64,000 bases of DNA, from positions 120,467 through 184,466 of the IMG/VR virus record IMGVR_UViG_3300021181_000006; one strand, given 5' to 3'. Position numbers and translations under genes: made by a program. The notes under the pieces were generated by a model. That model saw only the letters and a program-made list of their open reading frames with translations. It did not search any database and was not told where the DNA came from. The first letter of the stretch is position 1; each line of letters starts with the position of its first letter. Positions 8,682 to 63,822 of the stretch are shown one piece after another. This stretch comes from a virus.

Positions 8682-8760
8682 GCCATTGTATCGGAACCGC
8701 CTTCTAAGCGGTAGCCCCGTAACTGGATCAATGTAGGTTCAACTCCTACCGATGGCGCCA
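8682..8760 (+). tRNA. tRNA-Arg(TCT)-like sequence lacking a D-arm
   Basis: Acceptor GCCATTG (8682-8688) pairs with CGATGGC (8750-8756), followed by G and encoded CCA. The T-arm is GTAGG-TTCAACT-CCTAC (8733-8749). The anticodon arm ACCGC-CTTCTAA-GCGGT (8696-8712) gives anticodon TCT (Arg, AGA). However, only 7 bases separate the acceptor from the anticodon stem, so no D-arm fits, while 20 bases lie between anticodon and T arms. It is either degenerate or rearranged, or a tRNA mimic. Confidence 0.6.
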
Positions 8761-31954: not shown

Positions 31955-33112
31955 TTAGGTCCCAAGGGTAACGGCTGCGGCAGCGTTCAGATTGCCGATT
32001 CCGATTGCAATATCTTCCCATGCACGCCATGAGATGATATTGAAGTCCTTCTTGATCACAAACTTCGTCTGATTCAGGATGTAGAACTGTCCCAGGAAGC
32101 GAGGAGCGGTGAAGGCGTACACAACCTTCAGGCTTGCTGCTGTGACAGTGAACGTCTCTGCGAGAGATGAGTTTGAGATGGCTTCATTTACCACGATGGA
32201 GTTGGCACCAACCGACGCAACCGTCACAGTCAGTCCGTTATTCTCATGTCCACCTGAGATCACAATCGAGTCACCGCGACCAATTGGCACCAGGTTTGCA
32301 CCTGAGAAGCTAAAGGTCTTGGTGCTGGCTACTGCGCCAGTGGTTGTGAGCGTGGTGACTGTTCCGCCTGGAACGTATGCAGCATTCTTGAAGAACATCG
32401 AGGTCTTAATCGAGGTGATAACCTTGCGACCCAGGAAGGTAGCGTAGGTGTATCCGTCGATAGTGACCTTCTCGATCAGATCGTCACCGAGGACGGTATG
32501 ATCGAATTCCAGGATATCATTCCAGGTTGTGGTTGACATCAGGAATGTCTCAGCCTTGAGGCGCTGATTCTCAATCAGATTGATAAGGACCTTCAGGGCG
32601 CCCTTGCTCAGATCTGGAGTGCTTCCGATGTAGTTAACCCACATATCGTTGCTCAGAATACCTGCATCGACGTTGGCCAGGAAGCCTGCGTCTTCGATAC
32701 CCTGAATATCCTTGACCGAGTTCTCTTCAATCACCTTGGTGATAGGATAGTCGTAGGCCAGGAGTTCGGTCTCATCCTTCGAGAAGTCCTCGGAGGCGAT
32801 ACGATAGAAAGGCACTGCGTATCTCTTGCCCACAACGTAACGACCATCGGGCTCGCCTTGGAAGTTCATTGCCATAGCCTTCGAATCAGGCTCGATGTCA
32901 ACGATCTTGACGAAACCGTCATTGGTCACGCTGCGTGTAACGTCAGAACGAGTGACATTCACTGGAGGAAGGATCTGACGAGCAAACGATGTCTCGCGCA
33001 GGATCTTTTGGATGTAGGCGCCGCCTACTTCGGCCAACTTCTCCAGACCTTCGTTGTTGCTAAGAGCATCAACGAATAATCCGTTTAAGATGGAGGCATT
33101 ATTATCACTCAT
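31955..33112 (-). CDS. major capsid protein, HK97-fold, 385 aa
   Basis: Builds the icosahedral head. Support: size; place downstream of the protease, scaffold-like and decoration genes; E-loop/P-domain style sequence (DGRYVVGKRYAVPFYRIASE, then YPITKVIEENSVKDIQGIED); and G+C-rich, well-expressed codons. A beta insert (about 245-330, with GRGDSIVISGGHENNGLTV) resembles the modules in the sheath. The N-terminus contains LEKLAEVGG (residues 23-31), a possible maturation cleavage site. Confidence 0.82.
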   Translation of the reverse strand: MSDNNASILNGLFVDALSNNEGLEKLAEVGGAYIQKILRETSFARQILPPVNVTRSDVTRSVTNDGFVKIVDIEPDSKAMAMNFQGEPDGRYVVGKRYAVPFYRIASEDFSKDETELLAYDYPITKVIEENSVKDIQGIEDAGFLANVDAGILSNDMWVNYIGSTPDLSKGALKVLINLIENQRLKAETFLMSTTTWNDILEFDHTVLGDDLIEKVTIDGYTYATFLGRKVITSIKTSMFFKNAAYVPGGTVTTLTTTGAVASTKTFSFSGANLVPIGRGDSIVISGGHENNGLTVTVASVGANSIVVNEAISNSSLAETFTVTAASLKVVYAFTAPRFLGQFYILNQTKFVIKKDFNIISWRAWEDIAIGIGNLNAAAAVTLGT

Positions 33113-40644: not shown

Positions 40645-40670
40645 CTTTTGGTATAAGCTATATACACACC
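40645..40670 (+). promoter_or_regulatory. promoter-like TTTTGGTATAAGCTATATACAC
   Basis: GGTATAAG followed by TATACACACC fits the repeated + strand element of this phage, here without a preceding hairpin. It would be the first promoter of the 40.7-45.2 kb run, serving the gene at 40712. Confidence 0.55.
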
Positions 40671-40711
40671 CATTGAAGAACTACACTTCTTCATACAACA
40701 AGGAATATACC

Positions 40712-40915
40712 ATGCTCTTCGGAATCCCCACTCAGACCATCGTTGTCGGAGTCGTCTGCGCCGCTGCCGGTGCCATCGGTGGTGCCATGTACGCCAAGAG
40801 TGCCGCCGCTGCTGACATCAAGGCGCTCACCGATCTCAACGCCAAGCACAAGGTGGAGATCGAGAGCCTCACCAAGCTGCTCGACCAGGCCACCTCGACC
40901 AAGCGCGCTGCGTGA
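40712..40915 (+). CDS. small membrane protein with G+C-rich codons, 67 aa
   Basis: N-terminal hydrophobic Gly/Ala segment (TIVVGVVCAAAGAIGGAMYA), then a charged helix (KALTDLNAKHKVEIESL). Start ATG at 40712 with AAGGAA eight bases upstream. Almost every codon ends in C or G, unlike its neighbours, indicating either very high expression or recent import. Ends just before a 14-bp terminator hairpin. Possibly a virion or host-membrane peptide; unrecognised. Confidence 0.65.
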   Translation: MLFGIPTQTIVVGVVCAAAGAIGGAMYAKSAAAADIKALTDLNAKHKVEIESLTKLLDQATSTKRAA

Positions 40916-40920
40916 TCTGT

Positions 40921-40977
40921 TGATCATACAAACCGCAAGGTTTGTATGATCACTTAGCTATGTTTTTTAGGTATAAG
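40921..40977 (+). promoter_or_regulatory. terminator-promoter unit: 14-bp hairpin + TTTTTTAGGTATAAG
   Basis: TGATCATACAAACC pairs perfectly with its complement over a GCAA tetraloop (40921-40952). TTAGCTATG and then TTTTTTAGGTATAAG (40963-40977) follow, with TACACC a few bases on. First of the series of fused terminator-promoter elements. Confidence 0.7.
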
Positions 40978-41004
40978 TTAAATACACCACCAACAAGGAA
41001 CCCT

Positions 41005-41304
41005 ATGTACTCTCAGACTCCAGAAGAGATTGCTCATAGTATCAGTCTCCTCAAAGATGATATCCAAATCCGTATGCGTGCCATGCATTACTATCTCATG
41101 CAGCAAGGCTCTGCGATTCTGGAACGGTTTGTTCGTGAAATTCCTCCTCCAGCAACCCATGAGATGAATCAAGAACTCATCAATCTGGCTCTGCAGAGCA
41201 AGATGCATTGGGATGACATTGAGGACAAGATTTGCTTTCCGATGTCAGTCGTGCATAGGAAATACAAGGAGATCGATAGACTCATGCGAGTTAAGACACC
41301 TTAA
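41005..41304 (+). CDS. hypothetical helical protein, 99 aa
   Basis: Start ATG at 41005 chosen for AAGGAA upstream and because the promoter box lies before it. Helical with PEEIAHSISLLKDDIQIR at the start and an HTH-like end (DDIEDKICFPMSVVHRKYKEI), so DNA binding is conceivable. The stop overlaps the next terminator stem. Not recognised. Confidence 0.6.
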   Translation: MYSQTPEEIAHSISLLKDDIQIRMRAMHYYLMQQGSAILERFVREIPPPATHEMNQELINLALQSKMHWDDIEDKICFPMSVVHRKYKEIDRLMRVKTP

Positions 41305-41324
41305 TGGTGTCTTTTAGGTATAAG
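41293..41324 (+). promoter_or_regulatory. terminator-promoter unit
   Basis: AAGACACC/GGTGTCTT stem (41293-41313) merges directly into TTTTAGGTATAAG (41312-41324), followed by ATTAATACACC. The stem includes the stop codon of the upstream gene. Confidence 0.68.
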
Positions 41325-41353
41325 ATTAATACACCCTTTCTCTAGGAACTATT

Positions 41354-41710
41354 ATGCTAATCTATTATTTTGGATGCTGGGATTCCATTGGCCATCACCT
41401 CTATACACCCGGTGGTCGGTATGCAGATGATAATATTAAGAATTTATTACCATGCAAATGGGAAAATCTCGACGGTGGTTTTTCTCCAGAGGAAACCAAC
41501 ACCCAAGGGATAGCAAAGCTCACCCATATTGAAGACTGGACTATTGTTTCATTTTGGGATTATAGCGTAGATACTCGACACGGTTCCCATAGCACATTCA
41601 TTATTGATGAAATACTGGATATAGATAAAGCTTTAATGTCTGCTCGTAATGTATATCCAGACATCTTTGCTCGTTATAAGTTCCAGATCTCAGGGACCAC
41701 ACAGACGTAA
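41354..41710 (+). CDS. hypothetical phage protein, 118 aa
   Basis: Soluble alpha/beta protein starting LIYYFGCWDSIGHHLYTPGG and containing WTIVSFWDYSVDTRHGSHST. It has the look of a small phage-specific protein, perhaps a metal-binding one given the clustered His and Asp residues, but no family is recognised. It has its own promoter unit. Confidence 0.6.
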   Translation: MLIYYFGCWDSIGHHLYTPGGRYADDNIKNLLPCKWENLDGGFSPEETNTQGIAKLTHIEDWTIVSFWDYSVDTRHGSHSTFIIDEILDIDKALMSARNVYPDIFARYKFQISGTTQT

Positions 41711-41714
41711 ATAT

Positions 41715-41760
41715 TAGTATTTTTTCAGATATAAGAACATTAGAGACATATTGTCTCTAC
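41715..41760 (+). promoter_or_regulatory. variant promoter CAGATATAAG with leader hairpin
   Basis: A T-run and CAGATATAAGAACATT (GATATAAG at 41728-41735), then AGAGACA-TAT-TGTCTCT forming a 7-bp hairpin in the leader. Only a weak AAATA/TATTT stem precedes the T-run, making this the least typical member of the series. Confidence 0.5.
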
Positions 41761-41810
41761 TACAGATTCATCTTAATTGATGATATCTGATAAATATATA
41801 GGAGTTTCCC

Positions 41811-41984
41811 ATGAATGACCGTAACGACAATGATCAGAATACGGCTGGGGTTCTAGGGATTCAGTCTGAAGAAAGCATCTCGCACATGTGGGGCGATACT
41901 GACGATGATGAAGACATAGAAGATGATGAAGATGATGAAAGCGACGATGACGACTCAGACGACGGTGACGATAACGATACATAA
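41811..41984 (+). CDS. extremely acidic small protein, 57 aa
   Basis: ATG with ATAGGAG nine bases upstream. The first 27 residues are ordinary (NDRNDNDQNTAGVLGIQSEE); the last 30 are almost only Asp and Glu with some Ser/Gly/Asn (DDDEDIEDDEDDESDDDDSD). Such a tail could mimic DNA, as phage anti-restriction proteins do, or bind basic host proteins. Inference from charge only. Confidence 0.6.
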   Translation: MNDRNDNDQNTAGVLGIQSEESISHMWGDTDDDEDIEDDEDDESDDDDSDDGDDNDT

Positions 41985-42045
41985 TCACACACTTTCCAAG
42001 ACTAGAAAGATAGGTTTCCCAATGTGAACATTATTACAACTCATG

Positions 42046-42091
42046 CGTGAACCAGCTGCAATTATGCTGGTCACGTTTTTTTAGGTATAAG
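42046..42091 (+). promoter_or_regulatory. terminator-promoter unit
   Basis: Stem CGTGA(A)CCAGC / GCTGGTCACG with one bulge (42046-42075), a T7 run, then AGGTATAAG (42083-42091). The 60 bases before it (41985-42045) show no gene. Confidence 0.68.
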
Positions 42092-42117
42092 ATTATGAAC
42101 CCCAACAAGGAAACCAT

Positions 42118-42486
42118 ATGAACCTTATTATCTCGTCGTTATCCGACGTTAATCATCGTCATGCTGAAGATACCATCGTCATGAACCAGCATATCATGGC
42201 AGAATGCCATCTCACGCTCAAGGTCGCTAGAGATCCACGTGATCGATACGCAGCAACTGCAGCATTGAATGCGGCTTTCAAGCGTATTCAACTGGCTCAT
42301 AGCCTCAAACTCTTGAAAGATGATCCCATCCGTTCATCACAGATCTGCCAACAGATCGTTGAGACCCAACCAGAGGAATATCCATGTCAGATCAGAGGCC
42401 AGGTTACGTCATCGTCAGTGGTCATTCAACCGAACAGCTCAAAAAGCATGTTCTTGAAGCTCTTAAAGATGGCTACGTTCCAATAG
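42118..42486 (+). CDS. hypothetical helical protein, 122 aa
   Basis: Helical protein (AEDTIVMNQHIMAECHLTLK ... YAATAALNAAFKRIQLAHSL). The AAGGAA-ATG start is good. The last 34 residues overlap the next gene in another frame and look less protein-like (TSSSVVIQPNSSKS), so the functional protein may end near residue 90 with this tail a by-product. Unknown function. Confidence 0.55.
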   Translation: MNLIISSLSDVNHRHAEDTIVMNQHIMAECHLTLKVARDPRDRYAATAALNAAFKRIQLAHSLKLLKDDPIRSSQICQQIVETQPEEYPCQIRGQVTSSSVVIQPNSSKSMFLKLLKMATFQ

Positions 42487-42575
42487 GAGGTATAGCCGTG
42501 CTAGAATATGATCATGGATATGGACATAGCCCTGAATACGTCCAATCCATGGTCTTAAAAGAAGTCCTTCGCTAG
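42384..42575 (+). CDS. DUF1737-like small protein, 63 aa
   Basis: RPGYVIVSGHSTEQLKKHVL followed by EALKDGYVPIGGIAV fits DUF1737: a Y-x-I-V-S-G-x-S start, a helix, and G-[WY]-x-P-x-G-G-I-x-V. Family function is unknown. The AGAGGAA ribosome site supports this start despite a 103-base overlap with the previous frame. Confidence 0.65.
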   Translation: MSDQRPGYVIVSGHSTEQLKKHVLEALKDGYVPIGGIAVLEYDHGYGHSPEYVQSMVLKEVLR

Positions 42576-42593
42576 GTCTGCTCTATGCAGATC

Positions 42594-42628
42594 GAATCCC
42601 CCTACTAAGGGGATTCTTTAGGTATAAG
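42594..42628 (+). promoter_or_regulatory. terminator-promoter unit
   Basis: GAATCCCC/GGGGATTC stem (42594-42616) runs into TTTAGGTATAAG (42617-42628). A small stem (TCTGC/GCAGA) precedes it. The leader is short: ATTAAGGAG and the ATG at 42648 follow. Confidence 0.68.
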
Positions 42629-42647
42629 AACATTAAGGAGATTTATT

Positions 42648-43010
42648 ATGTTAACAGAGATTTCCGATAACTATGTTCATTGCAGTAGTCACTCTATAAG
42701 GCGACTCAGAGAAAGATTTGATTTCTTTGCCCTCAAAAGCAATTACTTCTGTATGAGATTCCTGGAGCAGAATGTAGATAAATCAGAAATAGTGATAGAA
42801 TCACGTGAAAAGCATCATCGATGGTATGGACGCACAGCTCGCTATTATCGGCATACCTATCAAGGAACTCCATTAGAGATGTTTTTCATAGTCAGCCCAG
42901 ATAATATTGTCGTCACAGTACTCACGAAAATACAGTTCCTGGCCTTAATGGAAGATACTCTTCATCTCAAAAGATATCATGCGTTGCTCTATAAGATAGC
43001 GAATGCATGA
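42648..43010 (+). CDS. protein with SxHSxxRLRxRF motif, 120 aa
   Basis: CSSHSIRRLRERFDFF near the N-terminus matches the SPHARLRLRQRF of the protein at 16345. Beta strands and VSPDNIVVTVLTK follow at the end. This layout suggests a small fold with a conserved His-Arg helix, perhaps RNA-binding. Unrecognised beyond the pair. Confidence 0.55.
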   Translation: MLTEISDNYVHCSSHSIRRLRERFDFFALKSNYFCMRFLEQNVDKSEIVIESREKHHRWYGRTARYYRHTYQGTPLEMFFIVSPDNIVVTVLTKIQFLALMEDTLHLKRYHALLYKIANA

Positions 43011-43017
43011 TCTCACT

Positions 43018-43051
43018 AAGAAGTCCCACTAGGACTTCTTTTAGGTATAAG
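43018..43051 (+). promoter_or_regulatory. terminator-promoter unit
   Basis: AAGAAGTCC/GGACTTCTT stem (43018-43040), then TTAGGTATAAG (GGTATAAG 43044-43051) and AAGGAA before the ATG at 43072. Confidence 0.68.
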
Positions 43052-43071
43052 GACATTACAAGGAATAACCT

Positions 43072-43257
43072 ATGCTCATTATATTCTGTATCCTCATCAA
43101 TTGGATGCTGATAGGCTCTTTGGGAGCAATAACATCTATTAGTCAGTTTAAGCAAGATATGTCTCTAAAAGACTATTTCATGATTTGGACTATTGCTTTC
43201 ACTATAGGACCTATTCTGTTAACAAACGTTCTTATTCAGCATATACGTAGAAAATGA
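43072..43257 (+). CDS. small membrane protein, 61 aa
   Basis: Two transmembrane segments (IIFCILINWMLIGSLGAI and MIWTIAFTIGPILLTNVL) with a polar loop and a basic end HIRRK. Coupled by ATGA to the next membrane protein. The pair may form one inner-membrane complex, for example for superinfection exclusion or host membrane change; no family recognised. Confidence 0.6.
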   Translation: MLIIFCILINWMLIGSLGAITSISQFKQDMSLKDYFMIWTIAFTIGPILLTNVLIQHIRRK

Positions 43258-43472
43258 TATGGTGCATCATCTCCTATGTGATCTTTGGAATGTGGATATC
43301 ATTCCAATGTATTATATTGGATAAATATACTGATATTGAAAGTACCGTCAAAAATAAAAAACTAATCGTTGATTACACATTCATTATTCTAGTTGTGTCT
43401 ATCTTATGGTTCCCGTTAGGGATCTTTATGGTTGGATCTGTTATCTGGGAGTTATATCACGAGAAGTCCTGA
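43254..43472 (+). CDS. small membrane protein, 72 aa
   Basis: Two transmembrane segments (MIWCIISYVIFGMWISFQCI, YTFIILVVSILWFPLGIFMV) around a charged loop. Starts in the ATGA overlap. Its TGA stop lies inside the next terminator stem. Confidence 0.6.
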   Translation: MIWCIISYVIFGMWISFQCIILDKYTDIESTVKNKKLIVDYTFIILVVSILWFPLGIFMVGSVIWELYHEKS

Positions 43473-43494
43473 ATAGGCTTCTTTTAGGTATAAG
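43463..43494 (+). promoter_or_regulatory. terminator-promoter unit
   Basis: GAAGTC/GGCTTC stem with one G-T pair (43463-43481), then TTTTAGGTATAAG (GGTATAAG 43487-43494). The leader to the ATG at 43572 is the longest of the series (about 75 bases) and contains a TATCCA/TGGATA hairpin. Confidence 0.65.
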
Positions 43495-43571
43495 ATTACT
43501 AGCGCTGCCCGATACGCAGTGTCATCTTTATCCATGTTGGATAGAGATAATCTATCGCCAAGGAGTTACCC

Positions 43572-44048
43572 ATGGCTCGTCAATATTCAAATGAAAAATC
43601 TTGCGCTGAACTGCGTGGGATCCAAATCTTTCATATCCTTCAAGGTTGTGCGTTTAACCGCATGACGAAGAATTATGAATGGCTTTCAGGCAAACTCGGC
43701 TACCCAGGCACGACTGATCTTCAGACCTCACAAGGACTTGGAGTAGGTAGAGTACTCGCATGGCCGTTAGGTCGTCTCATGTCGTGGTGCATCGATAATA
43801 AACTACCTCCCATTACCGTCCTTGTCGTGAACAAGAAGACCGGTAAGCCTGGAGTTGGTCTCGTCGGTACCACTGACTTCGATGCTGCCAGGGAAGCGGT
43901 ATTCGCTTACAACTGGTACGATATTATCGATCCAACCTTCGAGGAGTTGGCTAAGTATCGTAAAGGTAGTGAGGAGGATGTTCCTCAAGTGACCATTAAA
44001 GAGCAGTTGGGAGAATATTTCGTAGATGGTCAAACACGACGTGCCTAG
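43572..44048 (+). CDS. conserved-looking phage protein, 158 aa
   Basis: Helical N-terminus (CAELRGIQIFHILQGCAF), a middle GVGRVLAWPLGRLMSWCI, and a conserved-looking part LPPITVLVVNKKTGKPGVGL followed by DFDAAREAVFAYNWYDI. The pattern reminds me of hypothetical proteins found in mobile elements, but I cannot name a family. Strong AAGGAG site. Confidence 0.6.
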   Translation: MARQYSNEKSCAELRGIQIFHILQGCAFNRMTKNYEWLSGKLGYPGTTDLQTSQGLGVGRVLAWPLGRLMSWCIDNKLPPITVLVVNKKTGKPGVGLVGTTDFDAAREAVFAYNWYDIIDPTFEELAKYRKGSEEDVPQVTIKEQLGEYFVDGQTRRA

Positions 44049-44056
44049 ATGAATAA

Positions 44057-44092
44057 AGAAGAGTCTTAAATGACTCTTCTTTTAGGTATAAG
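44057..44092 (+). promoter_or_regulatory. terminator-promoter unit
   Basis: AGAAGAGTC/GACTCTTCT perfect 9-bp stem (44057-44080), then TTTTAGGTATAAG (GGTATAAG 44085-44092) and a leader with TTACACCATCAACAAGGAAC. Confidence 0.7.
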
Positions 44093-44124
44093 ATAGTTAC
44101 ACCATCAACAAGGAACTAACTATT

Positions 44125-44967
44125 ATGACTTCATATGCCGAACATCGCATGACGAAAAGCGTTCATGCCAAGCAGTACCTACTCAAGCAACACCCAAAAC
44201 AAAGACCAGATTCTGATACTCATATCGAAGATCTAGCCAATTTAATGCTGAAAGGTAACTTTTGCCAAGATATGAATGATGCCATTTGTATCAATACTCG
44301 CGGTGAATTATGCAATGGACAGAACCGGCTCTACGCTTTGATCAAAGCATCAGAAATAAACCCTGATATCACCATCAGAATGCTCTTCTTGCTGGATCAA
44401 GATCCTGATGCTTTCCCCTATATGGACGGCAATGGATTGGCTCGTCGCATGGAAATGCGCCTATCTTTCTTCAGATCTGAGCCTAAGTCTGTACTCAAGA
44501 AATATACTAGTCTGATCAGATTCGCCATGCGCGAACTGTATCACTTGAATCCCAAGGTCGAAATCGATGAAATCAACAAATATGCCGATAAGCATAAAGC
44601 GATCTTGGATTGGGCGACTGCTCGTGATCCTGAAGATAATAAGGCATTCGTCGGCACAGAATTCGTGATGTCCATGATAGAGATGCATCTGATGAATCCT
44701 GCGAAAGCAAGAGAATTCAGAAGGCATGTTCTGAGTGGTGCTAGTCTACCAGAGAAACATCCTGCGTTGGTTCTCCGAACATTCCTGATGGCAAACGAGG
44801 CGTCACGCCTCATGCCAAGAAGGAAAGAGATCTACTACAAGTGTATCCGGGCAGTAAAGGAATATTTGTCAGCTGGTGAAGCTGGCCAGATTCGTGGCAA
44901 CAAACTCACCATCGATGAATGGGAGGAAGAAACCTACGAAATGCTCAAGTCGATGTTTGCTGATTAA
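44125..44967 (+). CDS. ParB/DGQHR-like domain protein, 280 aa
   Basis: Residues 35-72 (IEDLANLMLKGNFCQDMNDA, then ICINTRGELCNGQNRLYAL) fit the N-terminal ParB-like/DGQHR domain found in phages and plasmids, where a G-Q-[HN]-R-L motif lies in the nucleotide-binding pocket. The rest is helical. It may act in DNA binding or as a nucleotide-dependent regulator. Here the usual DGQHR reads NGQNR. Confidence 0.6.
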   Translation: MTSYAEHRMTKSVHAKQYLLKQHPKQRPDSDTHIEDLANLMLKGNFCQDMNDAICINTRGELCNGQNRLYALIKASEINPDITIRMLFLLDQDPDAFPYMDGNGLARRMEMRLSFFRSEPKSVLKKYTSLIRFAMRELYHLNPKVEIDEINKYADKHKAILDWATARDPEDNKAFVGTEFVMSMIEMHLMNPAKAREFRRHVLSGASLPEKHPALVLRTFLMANEASRLMPRRKEIYYKCIRAVKEYLSAGEAGQIRGNKLTIDEWEEETYEMLKSMFAD

Positions 44968-44973
44968 TAGCAA

Positions 44974-45012
44974 CGAGAGGGCTCACCACCCTCTCGTTTT
45001 TTTAGGTATAAG
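44974..45012 (+). promoter_or_regulatory. terminator-promoter unit
   Basis: CGAGAGGG/CCCTCTCG stem (44974-44996), T7 run, AGGTATAAG, then TACTATACACC and CAAGGAAAC. Last unit of the series. Confidence 0.7.
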
Positions 45013-45276: not shown

Positions 45277-46815
45277 TCAAGGACGACCCGTGTAGAATAA
45301 CTCACCTGCTAGCATGCAGTACATGGTACTATGAACTGCATCATCTGGAGTAGCAGGAGAATGATCATAATACATGATATTATCACGATTATACTCAATA
45401 TTAATAGCCAAGAAATCATCAGCAAACTTCTGATAGAGATTCCAGCTCGGAAATTCGATACGTCGCTTCTCGATGAGATTAAAGAGATCAGTCATCACGG
45501 TAGTACGCCCAATCGTGAACATCAGGCGTTCTTGGTTCCAGTTCACACGATTTTTCTGACTTCCTGAGTTATAGAACTGGCATACACGTTCTGTGCCATA
45601 ATGATCCATGAGCTTCAGATTATTATGTAATCCAGCACCCCAGTCACAACCGATGAGCTGACAGTTATACTGCTCACAGATAATCTTGATATCTTCTAAC
45701 TGGAGATTTACGTCGGCTAATTGACCTTCATATTTCTTTTGGAATAAGATCATGAACTTATCTGGATACGGCATCCATGCGCCAATAGTCAGAATAGTGA
45801 ATGACACTTCACCAGTGAGACCCCAGTCGATTCCAGCTACAGTTGGAGTAGGTAACTGAGGATCATCATGGGCATACCAGTCAGTACGATTCGGATTGCA
45901 ACAGGCACGCATGAGAGCAGTGGTAAGAGGCTTTGATCCACTATCGTATGAAAGGCCTAAAACTTCGTTATAAAATCTGTGCTGTGGATAGTTGTTAAGT
46001 TTAAAAAGAATATCACTCTTCCAATCCATCCACGATGTCTGGAGTTGGCACAGGTGAAATCCTTCAATATCTGATCCAGGATTGGTTTTAATCCATTGGC
46101 CTAGAGCAGGATAAAGACGGCATATCTGACATCTCGCGCATACTAGATAATCTTTACCGATATTCTTGAGACCCATCTCCAAATTCCAATGACCACACCC
46201 AGAACATTTATTGGCCCATTCACGTTGTGTGCTGCGAGACCAATAAAATTCTATAGCATTATTAGTGGTTTTAGGCGTGCCGCTATAAACAAATGATTTA
46301 TAAGGATGAGATTTCTCTGCTCGTGGACTATGAGAAGCAGCTTCTTCTATGACACTAAGATTAGATACCAAGATATCCTGAAGCTCGTCTACGCATATTT
46401 GATCTGCTGACAAACCGCGAGTTCTGTCAGCATTCAAGAATGCGTAGCGAATATAGATATTAGAGCCGTTTAACAGAGTTTTTTGATCGATACGATCTGT
46501 ACATGTCGAATCAAATAGATTATCTGCTATATAAGGAGAGTTTTTTAAAAAATCATTTAATCTATCGGAGCTAAAATCTTTTGATTGAGATGCAGAAGGA
46601 CTAACAAACAATGTATTAAAATATGGGATACATGCACTATTGACTGAAATACGCGCAGATAGCGATGTAGACTTTTCTGACTGACGAGCAAACTTGAGAA
46701 TTAGTCTCTGTGCTGGCGATTCGTAGATAGCCTTTAAATATGGTCTATTACTCAGATCTAAAGGTTTACCTTTTAAAAATAACATCTTACTAGCTAAAGA
46801 AAAAGGTGAAATCAT
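45277..46815 (-). CDS. terL: terminase large subunit, 512 aa
   Basis: The ATPase/nuclease that packages DNA into the prohead. ATPase: ARQSEKST (43-50) as the P-loop, with Glu where Gly is usual; Walker B ICVDE (Asp143, Glu144); coupling motif SGTP (179-182). A zinc-like insert CSGC ... CARC (204-229) follows. RNase H-like nuclease: GIDWG (Asp330), GCDWG (Asp391) and the TPDDA Asp pair near 491. The C-terminus looks complete. Its start overlaps the stop of a homing endonuclease gene (TAATG). Confidence 0.9.
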   Translation of the reverse strand: MISPFSLASKMLFLKGKPLDLSNRPYLKAIYESPAQRLILKFARQSEKSTSLSARISVNSACIPYFNTLFVSPSASQSKDFSSDRLNDFLKNSPYIADNLFDSTCTDRIDQKTLLNGSNIYIRYAFLNADRTRGLSADQICVDELQDILVSNLSVIEEAASHSPRAEKSHPYKSFVYSGTPKTTNNAIEFYWSRSTQREWANKCSGCGHWNLEMGLKNIGKDYLVCARCQICRLYPALGQWIKTNPGSDIEGFHLCQLQTSWMDWKSDILFKLNNYPQHRFYNEVLGLSYDSGSKPLTTALMRACCNPNRTDWYAHDDPQLPTPTVAGIDWGLTGEVSFTILTIGAWMPYPDKFMILFQKKYEGQLADVNLQLEDIKIICEQYNCQLIGCDWGAGLHNNLKLMDHYGTERVCQFYNSGSQKNRVNWNQERLMFTIGRTTVMTDLFNLIEKRRIEFPSWNLYQKFADDFLAINIEYNRDNIMYYDHSPATPDDAVHSTMYCMLAGELFYTGRP

Positions 46816-57292: not shown

Positions 57293-57752
57293 CTAAAGCT
57301 CGCTTGGTAGCTTTGACAGCATGATTCCGATAGTGCTCAACCGCTGCTTGCAGTTTCTCAGCATTATCGCCATGCGCCTGAGCTGTCTGCTCTGCAATCA
57401 TCAGCTTCTCTTTGAGCTTTTTAATGGTATTCTTCAGTTTATCGACATTCGAGATAAGACCAAAATTATCGTTCTCTAAGAGAGCTTTCTCATGATCTAC
57501 AGGAGTAGGCTTGGGAGCCTGTACACCTTTACCATGAAATTGAGTATTAAGCTCTGCGGTTTTATCTGCTGCGAAGTCCATGACTTTAGGATTATAGCCT
57601 TTGTCATAGACCGTGTCCATATCCCAAAGATTAATACGACGGTCACGGTTAGCCCGTGGCTTAAACTCAGTCTCTTTTGTCAGAGAAACAGACATGCCCT
57701 GCGGCACAACCTGCATGTAGTTGACTGCAGCTAATTTACTTACGGAGGGCAT
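57273..57752 (-). CDS. coiled-coil protein after RNA polymerase, 159 aa
   Basis: Starts MPSVSKLAAVNYMQ (SKLAA motif), then a basic region and a coiled coil (NVDKLKNTIKKLKEKLMIAE, NAEKLQAAVEHYRNHA). It overlaps the end of the polymerase gene by 17 bases, so it is co-transcribed with it. May be virion or polymerase associated; unknown. Confidence 0.55.
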   Translation of the reverse strand: MPSVSKLAAVNYMQVVPQGMSVSLTKETEFKPRANRDRRINLWDMDTVYDKGYNPKVMDFAADKTAELNTQFHGKGVQAPKPTPVDHEKALLENDNFGLISNVDKLKNTIKKLKEKLMIAEQTAQAHGDNAEKLQAAVEHYRNHAVKATKRALDAESPA

Positions 57753-60700
57753 CGATCATATCCTGCACATGTGATATTTTCTTCATATAAGAAGGCATAT
57801 CAACCCTCTTCATAGTTTTATCAGGCATGGTTGTAGTGGCATTACCAAACTCAGCTCCATAAGCATACCCAGGGATAGGATGAGTTCCATGGAGTTCTGA
57901 CTTCCATGATTGAGCAGCACCCTGAGTAATGGACTTCTGTAAGTGTTGGAAATTCATACGGGCTAAGAAATCGTTACTCATCTCTGGCGACAGCTTTAAT
58001 CCTTTTACAATTTCTTCGTATTGGATTGGTTTCGCCAATTCTTTATTACGGAAATCTAACTCATTGATTGGCATATAATCGCCAATAACAACATTTTTAT
58101 CAGATCCAGTATCAGTGATCTGACCGTACCGTACAATCTGACCAACAGCAGTCTCTACCAGAGGTCTACGTACAATACGGCCAGAAGCCGCATAGCTATC
58201 TACTATAGAATCAACGATATACTTCTTAGCTTCTAATGTATTCTTAAGCGCTGCTAATTCTTGAGGTTTAATATTGCCTTCAGTAAGACGATCACCCTTT
58301 AAGACTTTATCGCCTTCTTTTACAATGGGTTGCATGAGTCCGTAATGCAGTTCTCCACCCACTGATACATAATGTCCACCCTGAGGGGCTGCATTCACCT
58401 TAGTAACAGTTCCATTTACTTCAGATAAAATAGCTTTATCTTGAACGATCTTCGGCATTTCTAAGAGTTGTACCGCCTGATCAAATCCACCAATACTCTT
58501 AGCGCCAACGGATCCACCAGTATGGAATTTCTTCATGGTCAGCTGTACGGATGGCTCTGAAAGAGATTGAGCCGCAATCACGCCAATATTATCACCGATA
58601 CGAGGCAGTTTACCATCTTCACGAAGACCAAAACACATAGCACATGGAGCATTACGAGCTTTGCAGGTGAGTGGTGAACGCACTTTAAGAAAATGAATGC
58701 CTTCTGCTTTCATTCTCTTAACTAAATCTGACTTCACCAGGGTATTCGCTGCAACGCCTGGATTGCCCTTCGCGGTATAGCGATCAATGGCATGAACCAT
58801 CTCGCCATCCAGATTGACATTAATGCCTTCTGTCGTACCGCAGTCGATTTCCGTAATCTTGCCATATAATCCGCTATTAATCATTTGCTTAGAGAATGCG
58901 CCAGAATCTTCAGTAGCTAAAGCACGATCCATCATACCTTTACGCACACCAGCCATAGTGGTCCAGTATTCGCTAGCAGTTAAGCCTTCAGCATATCCAT
59001 GCTTAATCAAGATAGGAACTGGCTGCTCATTATGATCGTTCACGAACATAGGTCCAACCATCATCTGTTCGATCTGGTTTGTTTTCCCAGACAGTGACGA
59101 TTTCATCATTTGATTCAATCCAGAGTCTTTATCAGTGAGATCCTTATGGACTTCCTTGATAATGGCACTTTCCTTCATCTTATTAGCGAATGACTGTACC
59201 CATGCTACTGGATTCTTCGCTACGGCCAACTCTTGCTCCAGTTTCTGGAATTCTTTACGTACCAGAGTAGGATTGGTCAGCTTCAGGTCAGACAGACCAA
59301 AGCTAACGCCTGAACTATACGATGCTGCATTACCTAAGTCTTTGAGTTTACTAACGATAGGACCATAATCCTTCTCGTGAGTCTTAGCAATTTTATCTAA
59401 AAGAATATTGATATTCTTCTTATCGAGAGTGATATCATCATTCCGTAATTCAGTAGGTAATGCATTATTTACAAGAATACGCCCAACCGTATTCACCTTT
59501 TTACCAATAGCGACTACATCACGTACCGATACTTTATGACCTTTATAGGCATTCTCTAACTCATTAACTGAATTATAGAAGGCTACAGGAGCTGCCTTAA
59601 TAGGAGGCAGCGTCATCACATAGAGGCCATTCAACATTTCCATCGCTGGACGATGTTCTAAGGTCAGAGTCTGAGGATTATAGAGATTGCGACTTGGCAA
59701 CATACCAAATGACTCTTTACGAGCATCTTCTGATACTGGTACGTGTACTGACATCGTATCGCCATCAAAGTCAGCGTTAAATCCACCAATAACCAGAGGA
59801 TTCAGTCGGATAGACTTACCTGTAGTCATTTTAGGAATAAAGCTCATCACTGAGAACTTATGAAGCGAAGGCGCTCTGTTGATAAAAACAGGACGCTCTT
59901 TCATCTCGTTCTCAAGAGTACGCTTCGCAATATCCTTATGCTCTTCTACAGCATTACGAGCATCAATAGGATTGTAACCCAGACGTACTAAAGCACGGAT
60001 GACATGAGGACGATAGACTGTCCATGCCATCTCATCTGGAATACCAACCTCATCTAAACTGAGTTCTGGCTCTGGAATAATGGTTGAACGGCCAGAAAAA
60101 TCCTGACGTTTACTTAATACCTTGGACTGGAAGAATCCTTCTTTCGGTGAAGATCCTGCAATCTGTGTAATAAAGCCCTTCGTGTCTCGCGTTCCCTTTT
60201 TCGTCAGAGACACACCGGTACCAATAAGTGCTTTCATAGCATTATAGGTATCGAGACGCAGATTCGCTTTTTCTGAATCAGGTAAATAACTAATCGACTT
60301 CAGCTGATTATTTACTGTAATCAGGTCTTTATACAATGTATTCGCATCAGAAATAATAAGATCGCCACTCTTCTGCTGGATAATAGGACGGAACTTCGGA
60401 GGAATAACTGGAATCTTACTGGTGAGATAATCTGAGAGCTTCATTGAATTATCGCGTAACGCTTTGATATATCTCATCTTACGATTGATTTTATCTAAAC
60501 TCTCTAACTTAGCTGTCTTTGCCTCGCTATTCAGATGGCTGTATTCAGTATCCAGATTAATACGATCCATCATACGCTTGATAGCTAACCCGCCTGAAAC
60601 AGATCCAGGTGTCTCTGTCGTCGATAGTTCACCAGAACGATTAACAAAGGCTTTATGTGAAAGAATATCATTAAATTCTTTCTTATCGATACCTAAGATG

Positions 60701-63700
60701 GTAATAATAGCATCTTCATACATGGGCATCGGCATCGGCTCGGCCAGCTGGATATGAGACCATTTATCCCCAGCTAATCCGCCAGTCAACTTCAAATCAA
60801 AAAGACCACCAGCTTCTGGCTCTAAATCCTTCGATTTTACAGCTTTAGCTTCAGTGACTTCACCATGTGACATCTTCGTGACATCAGCTTCTGTAACTGG
60901 AATCAAATGGATCGCATCATTACGACGCTCCATATTGACGCCTGATGCCGCTAACATGGCACGGAACTTATCAAATACGAATGGCACCTTCGGAGAAGGT
61001 AATGGCAGACCAGACTGATAGGCATTCCAGAAGTCATCCGACTTCTCAGATTTAAAGGTAGCCATTTCCTTCAGATTATGGTTTGCGCCATGGGCTAACA
61101 TCGAGTACAGCGTAAGCTGATCCATACTCTGACCACCTACACCACCACCAGATGATGGCTGCATATTCAGTGTATAACCATCTTGACCACGAGATGAGAA
61201 TTTTTTACGAACTGCATGATCCAGCTTCATGATATACTGCTGACCGGTCTGGATAGGATTATCCAACTTCTTGCCAGTAGTAGGATCAGTCACAAACTCT
61301 TTATCTTGGAGTTTATGTTGTTTTAACTCTCCAATTATTTTATCTAAGTAGTTAGTCGAACTGAAATTATCAGCGATATACGGATGGCCCGTCTTCTCAG
61401 CAATCTTTGATGCACCAAGTTCCAAGTTCTGAGACGGATTAATACGTCCAGGAACCGAATGTGGATTCAGATAGACATCAATTCTACGACCAGAATCAGT
61501 AACCAGTGCTTCATTATCTGGAATAATCTTCGAGATAATCCCCTTGTTTCCATGGCGTCCACTGAGTTTATCGCCCAGCTTCATGACTTCTTCAGTCTGA
61601 ACCTGGACCTCAACTGACTTAGGACCACGAACAATACGAACTACCTTACCACGGTCTTCTTCATTCCACTCAATGGAACGATTCTTCATCGGTCTTACAG
61701 CTGATTTTTTAAAAGCACTCAGGATGATATCGTCCTTCGTCAGCTCTTCTTTATGCAGATGAACAATAAGAGGATCACCGAGTTCAACGGTCTCACCTTG
61801 TTTAATGATGCCTTCTGAGTCTAATTTAGCGAGCTGAGCAGACGTATAAGCGGTAGGATAATTAGCGATGAATTTCTTCTTATCTAAGAAGCTATTCACA
61901 TCTAATTCCAGATTCTCTTTATACATATGCTCTGATGTCAGCTTCTTAGAAGCTGATTCAGTGATAACCACACCATCTTCAAGCCCATGACCCTTATAGG
62001 ATACATAGCCTACATTGAGATTCGTGCCTAAAGCTAACGTATCGCCTTTATTAAAGTTCAGTTCAGCGATAGTTTGGCCAGCTTTGACTTTATCGCCAAC
62101 CTTTACAAGAGCTTTATGATTAAGATACTGCTTAGAACGTAAAGGGAAGTTGTTATACAGATAATGAGGATCATTCCCGATATAAATCTCATCAGGTGTT
62201 ACCTTAGTTACCACGCCAGCGGATTTAGATGATACGTTCTGACCTTTGCCAATATAGTCTTCAAAGGTTGTGTTATTACCGAACATGCTCTGTACGAGAG
62301 GAGCCTCACGATACTTCAGAGGTAATGCCTGCTCCATCTGTTTACCAGCAAAGGCAGCACGATTACCGGAGTTCGATTGTAAGAATGGCGCTAAGTTCGA
62401 AGCGAAGTCAAACATCGCCTTATCTGATGGCAGAATGTATTCCACTGACTTCGCTGGTACTTTATGGAGTACACCACGATCACAGGCTGATACCATCGCA
62501 TGTTTTGGAGTTCCATCTGCATGAAACTCATCAGCAAAGCTAATAATAGCATTGGCTGATTGATCAACGCGCAACTTCTCAAACTTGCCAGTCTTCAAAT
62601 TCTTTAAGTGAGTAAAGAGATCATTACCCTCTTTTAAAGCACCAATAGCCATGTGCTGGGTAACGCCCACATCCTTTTCAGGGGTATGGACAGGATCAAT
62701 AAATCCCAGCTGTGATGGATGAGCCATACGAGCTTCATCAGTAATCGAATGATGGTTCTCAATGCCACCTTCTCCAGAGATCACGACTTTATTTGTCTCA
62801 CCGATCATATTGAGCGGATTAATCTGCTCTGTGGTAGACGATAAGCTACTCTGAGTAAAGAAGCTTTTGATAGGCTTTCCGATGAGTGATGCATTGATGA
62901 TAAGACGTACATTCTCACGTTTATCAACGTTATTACGAATCTTCATCTTAATCTCAGGAAGTTTCTTCATGAAACTATCGTAGACGAAGTCATCAACTGA
63001 TCTGATAATCTTAAACTCTAAAGAGTCACGTTCATCTTGCTGCGATGTACCTCTGTTAATATCGAGTAATCTCTTACTCGACATCAGTAATACTTGAGGT
63101 GATAACGCATCTTGACCCTGTAATGTTTTAGTGGTAACACGAGGATCCAGTTTCAGTTTAGAAAGCCAAAGACTAGCAGTAATAGCGTCTTTACCAGCTT
63201 TACCGAATGATGTCTTATCAAGCTTTGCTAACTCAGCTTCAGGAGATGATTTGCTGTTCTTCAGCGACATCTCATAGGTCTCTTTACCCCAGGCAGTTTG
63301 GATCTCCTGAGGTGTAACACCTAATCCGATGAGTAATGGCAGCAGCTTAATATTCAGAGTTCCCTTTTCCAACTTAAATACAGCTGTCTCAGGATCGAAT
63401 AAGATCTTTGCCTGGAAACCTTTTACGTTGATAAAGGACTCTAATTCACCGTTCTCTTTGACACGATGAAAAATACCAGGACGTAACAGGAGCTGATTTG
63501 CTACCTGATATTCGTTGCCATCAATGATATAGGATCCGCGAGGAGTGATTCGTGGTATATTTCCTAACTTCATCTTTGCGTTACTAATAACCTTTTTAGT
63601 AAGATTATCAGTTAAAGTGGCTGTACCAACGATAGGAGAACCAAAAGTTCCACCCTTGAGTTTGAGATCCATCTGCTCTTTGTAGTTCTCATTTGAGAGA

Positions 63701-63822
63701 TCTTCTACATGGAGATTAGATACTACTAAGGTATGAACCTTGCCTTCAATAGGAAAAATCTGACTAATAGCTTGAAGAGCTTTGCTCTTCATATTCTCAT
63801 ACTGCTGCTGGAAGTTCTGCAT
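57736..63822 (-). CDS. single-chain DNA-directed RNA polymerase, beta-beta' fusion, 2028 aa
   Basis: Transcribes DNA with both large subunits in one chain. Beta part (1 to about 960): GLEDGVVITESA (about 615), GDKLSGRHGNKG (750-761), NPHSVPGRINPSQNLE (about 790), GGGVGGQSMDQLTLYSML (about 900). Beta' part (about 970-2028): PMPMYED region, GRSTIIPEPELSL (about 1250), the catalytic NADFDGD (1349-1355) binding Mg, a Zn site RSPLTCKARNAPCAMCFG (about 1715) and QLTMKKFH of the trigger loop region (about 1765). The N-terminal beta' zinc-binding domain of bacteria is missing: no CxCxK start is seen. No sigma, alpha or omega gene was recognised in the window. Start is ATG at 63822. Confidence 0.93.
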   Translation of the reverse strand: MQNFQQQYENMKSKALQAISQIFPIEGKVHTLVVSNLHVEDLSNENYKEQMDLKLKGGTFGSPIVGTATLTDNLTKKVISNAKMKLGNIPRITPRGSYIIDGNEYQVANQLLLRPGIFHRVKENGELESFINVKGFQAKILFDPETAVFKLEKGTLNIKLLPLLIGLGVTPQEIQTAWGKETYEMSLKNSKSSPEAELAKLDKTSFGKAGKDAITASLWLSKLKLDPRVTTKTLQGQDALSPQVLLMSSKRLLDINRGTSQQDERDSLEFKIIRSVDDFVYDSFMKKLPEIKMKIRNNVDKRENVRLIINASLIGKPIKSFFTQSSLSSTTEQINPLNMIGETNKVVISGEGGIENHHSITDEARMAHPSQLGFIDPVHTPEKDVGVTQHMAIGALKEGNDLFTHLKNLKTGKFEKLRVDQSANAIISFADEFHADGTPKHAMVSACDRGVLHKVPAKSVEYILPSDKAMFDFASNLAPFLQSNSGNRAAFAGKQMEQALPLKYREAPLVQSMFGNNTTFEDYIGKGQNVSSKSAGVVTKVTPDEIYIGNDPHYLYNNFPLRSKQYLNHKALVKVGDKVKAGQTIAELNFNKGDTLALGTNLNVGYVSYKGHGLEDGVVITESASKKLTSEHMYKENLELDVNSFLDKKKFIANYPTAYTSAQLAKLDSEGIIKQGETVELGDPLIVHLHKEELTKDDIILSAFKKSAVRPMKNRSIEWNEEDRGKVVRIVRGPKSVEVQVQTEEVMKLGDKLSGRHGNKGIISKIIPDNEALVTDSGRRIDVYLNPHSVPGRINPSQNLELGASKIAEKTGHPYIADNFSSTNYLDKIIGELKQHKLQDKEFVTDPTTGKKLDNPIQTGQQYIMKLDHAVRKKFSSRGQDGYTLNMQPSSGGGVGGQSMDQLTLYSMLAHGANHNLKEMATFKSEKSDDFWNAYQSGLPLPSPKVPFVFDKFRAMLAASGVNMERRNDAIHLIPVTEADVTKMSHGEVTEAKAVKSKDLEPEAGGLFDLKLTGGLAGDKWSHIQLAEPMPMPMYEDAIITILGIDKKEFNDILSHKAFVNRSGELSTTETPGSVSGGLAIKRMMDRINLDTEYSHLNSEAKTAKLESLDKINRKMRYIKALRDNSMKLSDYLTSKIPVIPPKFRPIIQQKSGDLIISDANTLYKDLITVNNQLKSISYLPDSEKANLRLDTYNAMKALIGTGVSLTKKGTRDTKGFITQIAGSSPKEGFFQSKVLSKRQDFSGRSTIIPEPELSLDEVGIPDEMAWTVYRPHVIRALVRLGYNPIDARNAVEEHKDIAKRTLENEMKERPVFINRAPSLHKFSVMSFIPKMTTGKSIRLNPLVIGGFNADFDGDTMSVHVPVSEDARKESFGMLPSRNLYNPQTLTLEHRPAMEMLNGLYVMTLPPIKAAPVAFYNSVNELENAYKGHKVSVRDVVAIGKKVNTVGRILVNNALPTELRNDDITLDKKNINILLDKIAKTHEKDYGPIVSKLKDLGNAASYSSGVSFGLSDLKLTNPTLVRKEFQKLEQELAVAKNPVAWVQSFANKMKESAIIKEVHKDLTDKDSGLNQMMKSSLSGKTNQIEQMMVGPMFVNDHNEQPVPILIKHGYAEGLTASEYWTTMAGVRKGMMDRALATEDSGAFSKQMINSGLYGKITEIDCGTTEGINVNLDGEMVHAIDRYTAKGNPGVAANTLVKSDLVKRMKAEGIHFLKVRSPLTCKARNAPCAMCFGLREDGKLPRIGDNIGVIAAQSLSEPSVQLTMKKFHTGGSVGAKSIGGFDQAVQLLEMPKIVQDKAILSEVNGTVTKVNAAPQGGHYVSVGGELHYGLMQPIVKEGDKVLKGDRLTEGNIKPQELAALKNTLEAKKYIVDSIVDSYAASGRIVRRPLVETAVGQIVRYGQITDTGSDKNVVIGDYMPINELDFRNKELAKPIQYEEIVKGLKLSPEMSNDFLARMNFQHLQKSITQGAAQSWKSELHGTHPIPGYAYGAEFGNATTTMPDKTMKRVDMPSYMKKISHVQDMIDALRK

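Follow-up and report, generated by a model that had tools for sequence, protein, structure and literature searches.

The window analysed here is the final 64 kb (64,000 nucleotides) of the 184,466-base virus record IMGVR_UViG_3300021181_000006 in IMG/VR, and it contains an RNA polymerase gene in which β and β' are joined in one chain. The list of open reading frames (ORFs) shows a single ATG-to-stop frame of 2028 amino acids at positions 57736..63822 on the minus strand. The Pfam domains Rpb2_3, Rpb2_6 (E = 1.4e-55), Rpb1_1, Rpb1_2 (1.3e-31) and Rpb1_5 (2e-19) follow one another along this frame, that is, β and then β'. The best match among solved structures was a bacterial β' (3.8e-107, phmmer against PDB sequences), and predicted folds were also used for the assignment. 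Two polymerase models were searched against the complete record, and each gave one match.

The anatomy of the chain was analyzed by aligning it to the corresponding sequences of Escherichia coli, Bacillus subtilis and Clostridioides difficile and to those of eight relatives. Based on this alignment (E. coli and B. subtilis RpoB for the first half) and on fold models, the β half comprises residues 1-965 (60928..63822, minus strand, as for all the following elements) and the β' half residues 966-2028 (57739..60927). The active-site hallmarks of a cellular multisubunit core can be observed, namely the β lysines, the β' DxDxD motif and the trigger loop. The sequence GDKLSGRHGNKG (residues 750-761; 61540..61575), which is invariant across 45 aligned sequences, carries the catalytic lysines K752 and K760, aligned with K1065 and K1073 of E. 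coli β. NADFDGD (residues 1349-1355; 59758..59778) provides the Mg-binding residues D1351, D1353 and D1355, aligned with D460, D462 and D464 of E. coli β'. The trigger loop (M1763, H1767; 58498..58551) lacks the E. coli SI3 insertion, and the second β' zinc site (C1661, C1720, C1727 and C1730; 58633..58842) aligns with E. coli C814, C888, C895 and C898.

At the fusion junction (residues 966-1016; 60775..60927), where the β C-terminus runs into the β' N-terminus, the alignment shows that the β sequence ending in FRAMLAASGVNME continues as the β' sequence LIPVTEADVTKMSHGEV...GGLFD; β enters the β' segment DVTKMSHGEV...GGLFD directly, with no extra bacterial tail. The 32-residue N-terminal zinc domain of β' (E. 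coli residues 66-97, with C70-C88) has no counterpart after residue 1016; it is missing in comparison with both E. coli and B. subtilis, and it is likewise absent in the eight aligned relatives. Also missing, in comparison with E. coli, are two β insertions of 117 and 112 amino acids and the 189-amino-acid SI3 insertion of β'. An AlphaFold model of residues 1-1000 (predicted local distance difference test, pLDDT, 85) matched bacterial β with a template modelling (TM) score of about 0.74 in Foldseek, and a model of residues 965-2028 (pLDDT 82) matched bacterial β' with a TM score of about 0.8. A preliminary description of this DNA, made from its letters alone, had proposed a phage-encoded, full-length and full-motif fusion with β motifs followed by β' motifs including NADFDGD, a shortened junction and no N-terminal β' zinc domain; the frame, the Pfam order and the alignment agree with it on each of these points. 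Its term "minimal" holds only in part: most of the missing length corresponds to lineage-specific bacterial insertions, as judged from the alignment and the folds.

Only 178 bases separate the start of the gene from the end of the record, which is metagenomic and linear, as might be expected if an assembly or sequencing error had joined two genes. The chance of such an error is nevertheless practically negligible, because the one-frame fusion recurs in 102 further non-redundant contigs of IMG/VR, and β is also joined to the N-terminal part of β' (β'N) in the isolated phages Arash (Salmonella) and D69 (Vibrio). An independent contig (L007/L009), 63% identical, also has a chain fused up to residue ~1854, where a 26-bp duplication breaks the frame. 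Related stretches in IMG/VR numbered 145 with one alignment query and at least 559 with another. Among the loci fetched, β through β' lies in one frame in the 102 contigs mentioned (median 2096 amino acids), in two genes in 36 loci and in three genes in 21 scored as such; these proportions are not population estimates, since the search query favours one-gene relatives. A scan of genome contigs found no relative. The fusion is therefore common in phages and not, as the preliminary description had it, uncommon. One of the loci scored as three-gene, L250 (9001-14958), is actually one polymerase frame interrupted by TGA codons in frame. This pattern suggests a reassigned TGA, decoded as an amino acid by the host or the phage. 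Matches to shotgun contigs labelled as Staphylococcus, Enterococcus or Listeria phage were discounted as probable contamination with bacterial DNA; L003, the one inspected, carries rpoB and rpoC as separate genes with EF-Tu after them, and MT836236 groups with Phocaeicola in the tree.

The record is assigned to a tailed phage because genes for a terminase large subunit (45277..46815; phrog_675, 2.9e-66; PF05876, 2.6e-10) and a major head protein (31955..33112; phrog_2522, 1.4e-7) lie on the minus strand together with the polymerase gene. This shared strand, together with a tree position outside bacterial rpoBC, identifies the polymerase as a phage gene. In trees rooted with a bacterial outgroup alone (six or seven bacteria, with archaeal and Helicobacter rows not included), the phage enzymes form their own branch, with 100% support, outside the diverse bacteria included. 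The preliminary description had named assembly error and a place inside a host rpoBC clade as the outcomes that would speak against it; neither was found, and capture or contamination from host rpoBC is ruled out by the tree and by the phage genes on the record.

The same trees bear on the order of fusion and fission. In a 36-row mixture-model tree the one-gene, the three-gene and the bacterial rows each fall on one side of a branch, and in this and further trees the three-gene clade is nested within a two-gene grade. In the smaller trees the one-gene rows group as a single clade. This does not hold strictly in the larger tree of 168 rows, where one of them (L263) branches basally to the split forms with a support of 92. 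With L263 at this position the single chain would be the ancestral state, which is likely rather than proved, because the L263 branch is long. The positions of the cuts point the same way. In the two-gene form, represented by the isolates Arash and D69, the chain is cut after the β' catalytic barrel. In 20 of the 21 rows scored as three-gene, the "β" ORF ends at query residue 1051-1067, whereas the old β/β' border lies near residue 965. The three-gene "β" thus retains about 90-100 residues of β', which is hard to explain without a fused ancestor and argues that fusion preceded fission. As judged from these alignments, the re-cut sites of the split forms differ from the old subunit boundary, and the clade probably descends from a fused form, with later fission giving rise to the two- and three-gene arrangements. 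An intron in the gap between β'N and the C-terminal part of β' (β'C) was considered for D69 and two other sequences; no Rfam intron was found there, and plain gene fission is preferred for this reason. Introns do occur elsewhere in the family: in the Vibrio phage D181, β is interrupted at query residue 483 by a group I intron that carries a homing endonuclease (L004:6455-6735) and is absent in the near-identical D69; another group I intron was found at L004:2658-2865.

Using the Pfam model for α (RpoA, PF01000), no α gene was detected in the phage's own genome or in 20 related genomes and contigs, whereas 13 of 14 positive controls matched. For a phage-encoded α, this agrees with the earlier proposal of an enzyme that may work without cellular α, ω or σ. 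The part of that proposal concerning σ is not supported, because the genome encodes a σ70-family protein with regions 2 and 4 (G000:76743-77531), and so do most relatives: among 22 related genomes or contigs, σ region 2 was found by Pfam in 16, and Arash has two σ genes. A different explanation is that the single chain recognises promoters alone or with a phage non-σ factor, as proposed for the jumbo-phage enzymes, while the σ protein redirects the host polymerase. In line with this explanation, Pfam detected no σ region 2 in the long one-gene contigs G003 (199 kb) and G007 (175 kb), and the promoter-like motif GGTATAAG, described below, is a compact single element with no obvious -35 in the contexts inspected. 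We nevertheless regard self-recognition as unlikely, given the σ70-family genes in this genome and in most relatives, and given that Carin-5, a phage with a gp23-type capsid, has a σ-annotated gene adjoining its β/β' pair. Genes for SNF2-family helicases were also observed, near the σ gene in this phage (G000:74841-76229; L093:14841-16229) and directly after the β'C gene in Arash (L119:41261-42676). They call to mind the RapA-like partner that has been suggested for jumbo phages (PMC7824862).

The window contains 11 copies of the motif GGTATAAG, where 1.8 are expected. Nine promoter-like sites (40650, 40970, 41317, 42084, 42621, 43044, 43487, 44085 and 45005; overall 40650..45012) cluster in 4.4 kb of the plus strand and are enriched upstream of genes of that strand; most of them are found just 3' of a terminator-like T-run and shortly 5' of an AAGGA-type ribosome site and an ATG. 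A longer form, TTTWGGTATAAG, is distributed 11:0 by strand in the genome, against one copy for the control, and three of the three-gene relatives have 7-10 copies of it. About nine relatives, Arash among them, contain 22-34 copies of GGTATAAG, nearly all on one strand, whereas reversed-pattern controls gave 0-3 per strand; no enrichment was seen in four gp23-type phages whose cellular-type subunits are separate. By these sequence comparisons, GGTATAAG is a strand-biased promoter-like motif before opposite-strand genes, common to many, but not all, of the relatives, so that the earlier suggestion of this motif as a transcription template was a sound guess.

Arash (OQ632216; L117-L120) gives the clearest view of the motifs. 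Its consensus extends GGTATAAG as GGTATAAGTAAAGTGTAAA, and on the early/metabolic strand 21 upstream regions contain the motif within 90 bases, the genome having 31 copies in all. Of these 31 sites, 30 are on the strand that carries the replication, nucleotide and tRNA genes, whereas the polymerase genes share the opposite strand, and the region, with the portal, capsid and tail genes. The same split between the polymerase and structural genes and the GGTATAAG sites holds in the window. A second motif, CTAAAATA, precedes Arash late-strand genes, whose upstream regions are enriched in CTAAAAT (7 upstream matches, 14 genome copies). CTAAAAT also precedes the polymerase β'C gene. GGTATAAGTAAAGTGTAAA and CTAAAATA are thus divided by strand, and they sometimes overlap back to back. 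When a late-strand promoter motif was sought in the window's phage, none was found, and no CTAAAATA was seen before its late-strand genes.

This arrangement admits two further explanations. The polymerase could be packaged in the virion and start early transcription at GGTATAAG after injection, which would be compatible with the gene encoding the phage's own core. Both the placement of the Arash polymerase genes among the structural genes and the strand split, shared by the window, would suit this idea. Packaging is not indicated by the Arash annotation, however, because it marks many "structural proteins" but no polymerase piece, and an enzyme expressed from middle or late genes might just as well act in later transcription; we treat packaging as a tentative possibility. 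According to the second explanation, GGTATAAG is read by the host polymerase with a phage σ, and transcription by the fused enzyme is confined to the late arm, for instance from sites such as CTAAAATA in Arash. The CTAAAAT enrichment upstream of Arash late-strand genes, the β'C gene among them, and the two Arash σ genes would fit such a division. The missing CTAAAATA in the window's phage speaks against it, and GGTATAAG would be a poor -10 element for a host σ70, which makes this explanation doubtful.

We therefore favour, as quite probable, a joint reading in which the gene encodes an α-independent single-chain core belonging to the phage itself, which would work with a phage σ and whose fused form would be ancestral. 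The chain would be the catalytic core of a DNA-dependent RNA polymerase of the cellular type, and its covalent linkage would replace the α dimer in bringing β and β' together. With its flap and clamp the core would recruit the phage σ, and the resulting holoenzyme would transcribe phage promoters such as those of the GGTATAAG class before opposite-strand genes. The ancestral fused chain would later have been divided into the two- and three-gene forms. Several observations weigh against this reading. Besides the two long one-gene contigs mentioned above, the phage σ could instead redirect the host polymerase, as the pairing of σ and core is itself a deduction. In the genome as a whole, plain GGTATAAG reaches 20 copies against 15 for the reversed-pattern control, so that the case for it there is based on strand bias, position and the longer TTTWGGTATAAG. 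No GGTATAAG excess was found in D69 or in the L048 genome, both of which carry σ. The ancestral fusion is based partly on the long-branched L263 and on a bacteria-only outgroup, and the AlphaFold models are of two halves built apart and not of a joined active site.

Fusions of rpoB and rpoC are known from bacteria such as Helicobacter, with β and β' in the same order in one chain. The phage chain differs from them in its position outside the bacteria in the tree, in the loss of the β' zinc domain and in the lack of an α gene. The same enzyme family is present in the isolates Arash and Vibrio phages D69, D148 and D181, at about 31-33% identity to the query, in a two-gene form with a β-β'N protein of 1525-1527 amino acids (with AADYDGD) and a separate β'C of ~606-610 amino acids, annotated merely as "subunit beta" or hypothetical. 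Tailed phages encoding cellular-type β and β' with NADxDGD, placed apart from cellular enzymes, were described as mReC by Weinheimer and Aylward (2020; PMC7481178), and the present phage resembles them in these features. That work speaks of β and β' subunits and mentions fusion only for crAssphage. Its search required both COGs and NADxDGD, and would also have admitted one-gene sequences, so that part of mReC may be the same group as the phages described here. PF07068, reported for the 8 major capsid proteins found in mReC (PMC7481178), marks a difference: it was detected in none of 21 genomes or contigs of the fused-polymerase family, whereas all four gp23-type positive controls (YerA41/Carin-5/TM30/Va2-type) matched. 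Carin-5, RHph_TM30, Yru_GN1 and Va2 (W03-W06) make up a separate set of phages that combine a T4-type gp23 capsid with cellular-type polymerase genes; in Carin-5 and Yru_GN1, β' precedes β.

In the jumbo phages phiKZ and AR9, the virion and non-virion RNA polymerases (vRNAP/nvRNAP) are two sets of proteins, with β and β' each split into several pieces (PMC7598289). They too are cellular-type phage enzymes without α, and their β' is split after the catalytic barrel, as in our two-gene relatives; here there is one chain and one set, and each Pfam model matches the genome once. Single-chain two-barrel polymerases are represented by gp66 of the crAss-like phage phi14:2, YonO and P23-45 gp64/gp96 (PMC10770324), of which the crAss enzymes have no detectable match to cellular β/β' models (PMC7481178). 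These chains also hold both active-site barrels in one polypeptide, but they are far more diverged, whereas the 2028-amino-acid chain matches Pfam Rpb1/Rpb2 and bacterial chains with E-values down to 1e-107. We found no published description of this single-chain fusion in the open literature, subscription papers and preprints being outside the scope of the search.

Several related polymerases contain inserts. An inorganic pyrophosphatase (InPase) domain (PF18823) is located inside the β half of the β-β'N ORFs of L058, L059, L060, L061, L063 and L075, with E-values of 1e-25 to 1e-33 in five of them and 1e-5 in L075; in L060 (9965-14794) it covers residues 595-714. A polymerase that contains an enzyme acting on the by-product of its own reaction would be remarkable. 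Intein-like inserts were found at three highly conserved active-site positions: after query residue 1357 in L020, L041 and L032, after residue 754 in L043 and L052, and at ~386-397 in L056 and L022. LAGLIDADG or weak intein-splicing Pfam matches were obtained for L020, L022, L032, L041, L043 and L056, and none for L052. Elsewhere in the window, a tRNA-like Rfam match (39.2 bits) lies at 8682-8757 on the plus strand, where ARAGORN makes no call.

In cellular RNA polymerases, β and β' are assembled on an α dimer. The well-supported form of our finding is that a cellular-type polymerase core exists as one chain, is common in phages and comes with a natural series of gene fissions. A broader picture, towards which we lean with less assurance than towards the joint reading, is that of a clade of hundreds of contigs with an ancestral α-free chain that was later re-cut, with phage σ factors and promoters of its own and with one sublineage bearing an InPase inside β. 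Within a single tree, the clade offers the same enzyme in natural forms of one, two and three chains, and the role of α, the order of assembly and the effect of chain breaks are therefore directly testable. Isolates such as Arash make the family accessible, and together with a small σ the 2028-amino-acid chain would make a compact, convenient enzyme for transcription, built of domains of the bacterial type. The series also bears on the origins of phage polymerases, as the split subunits in this clade appear to be derived from a fusion.

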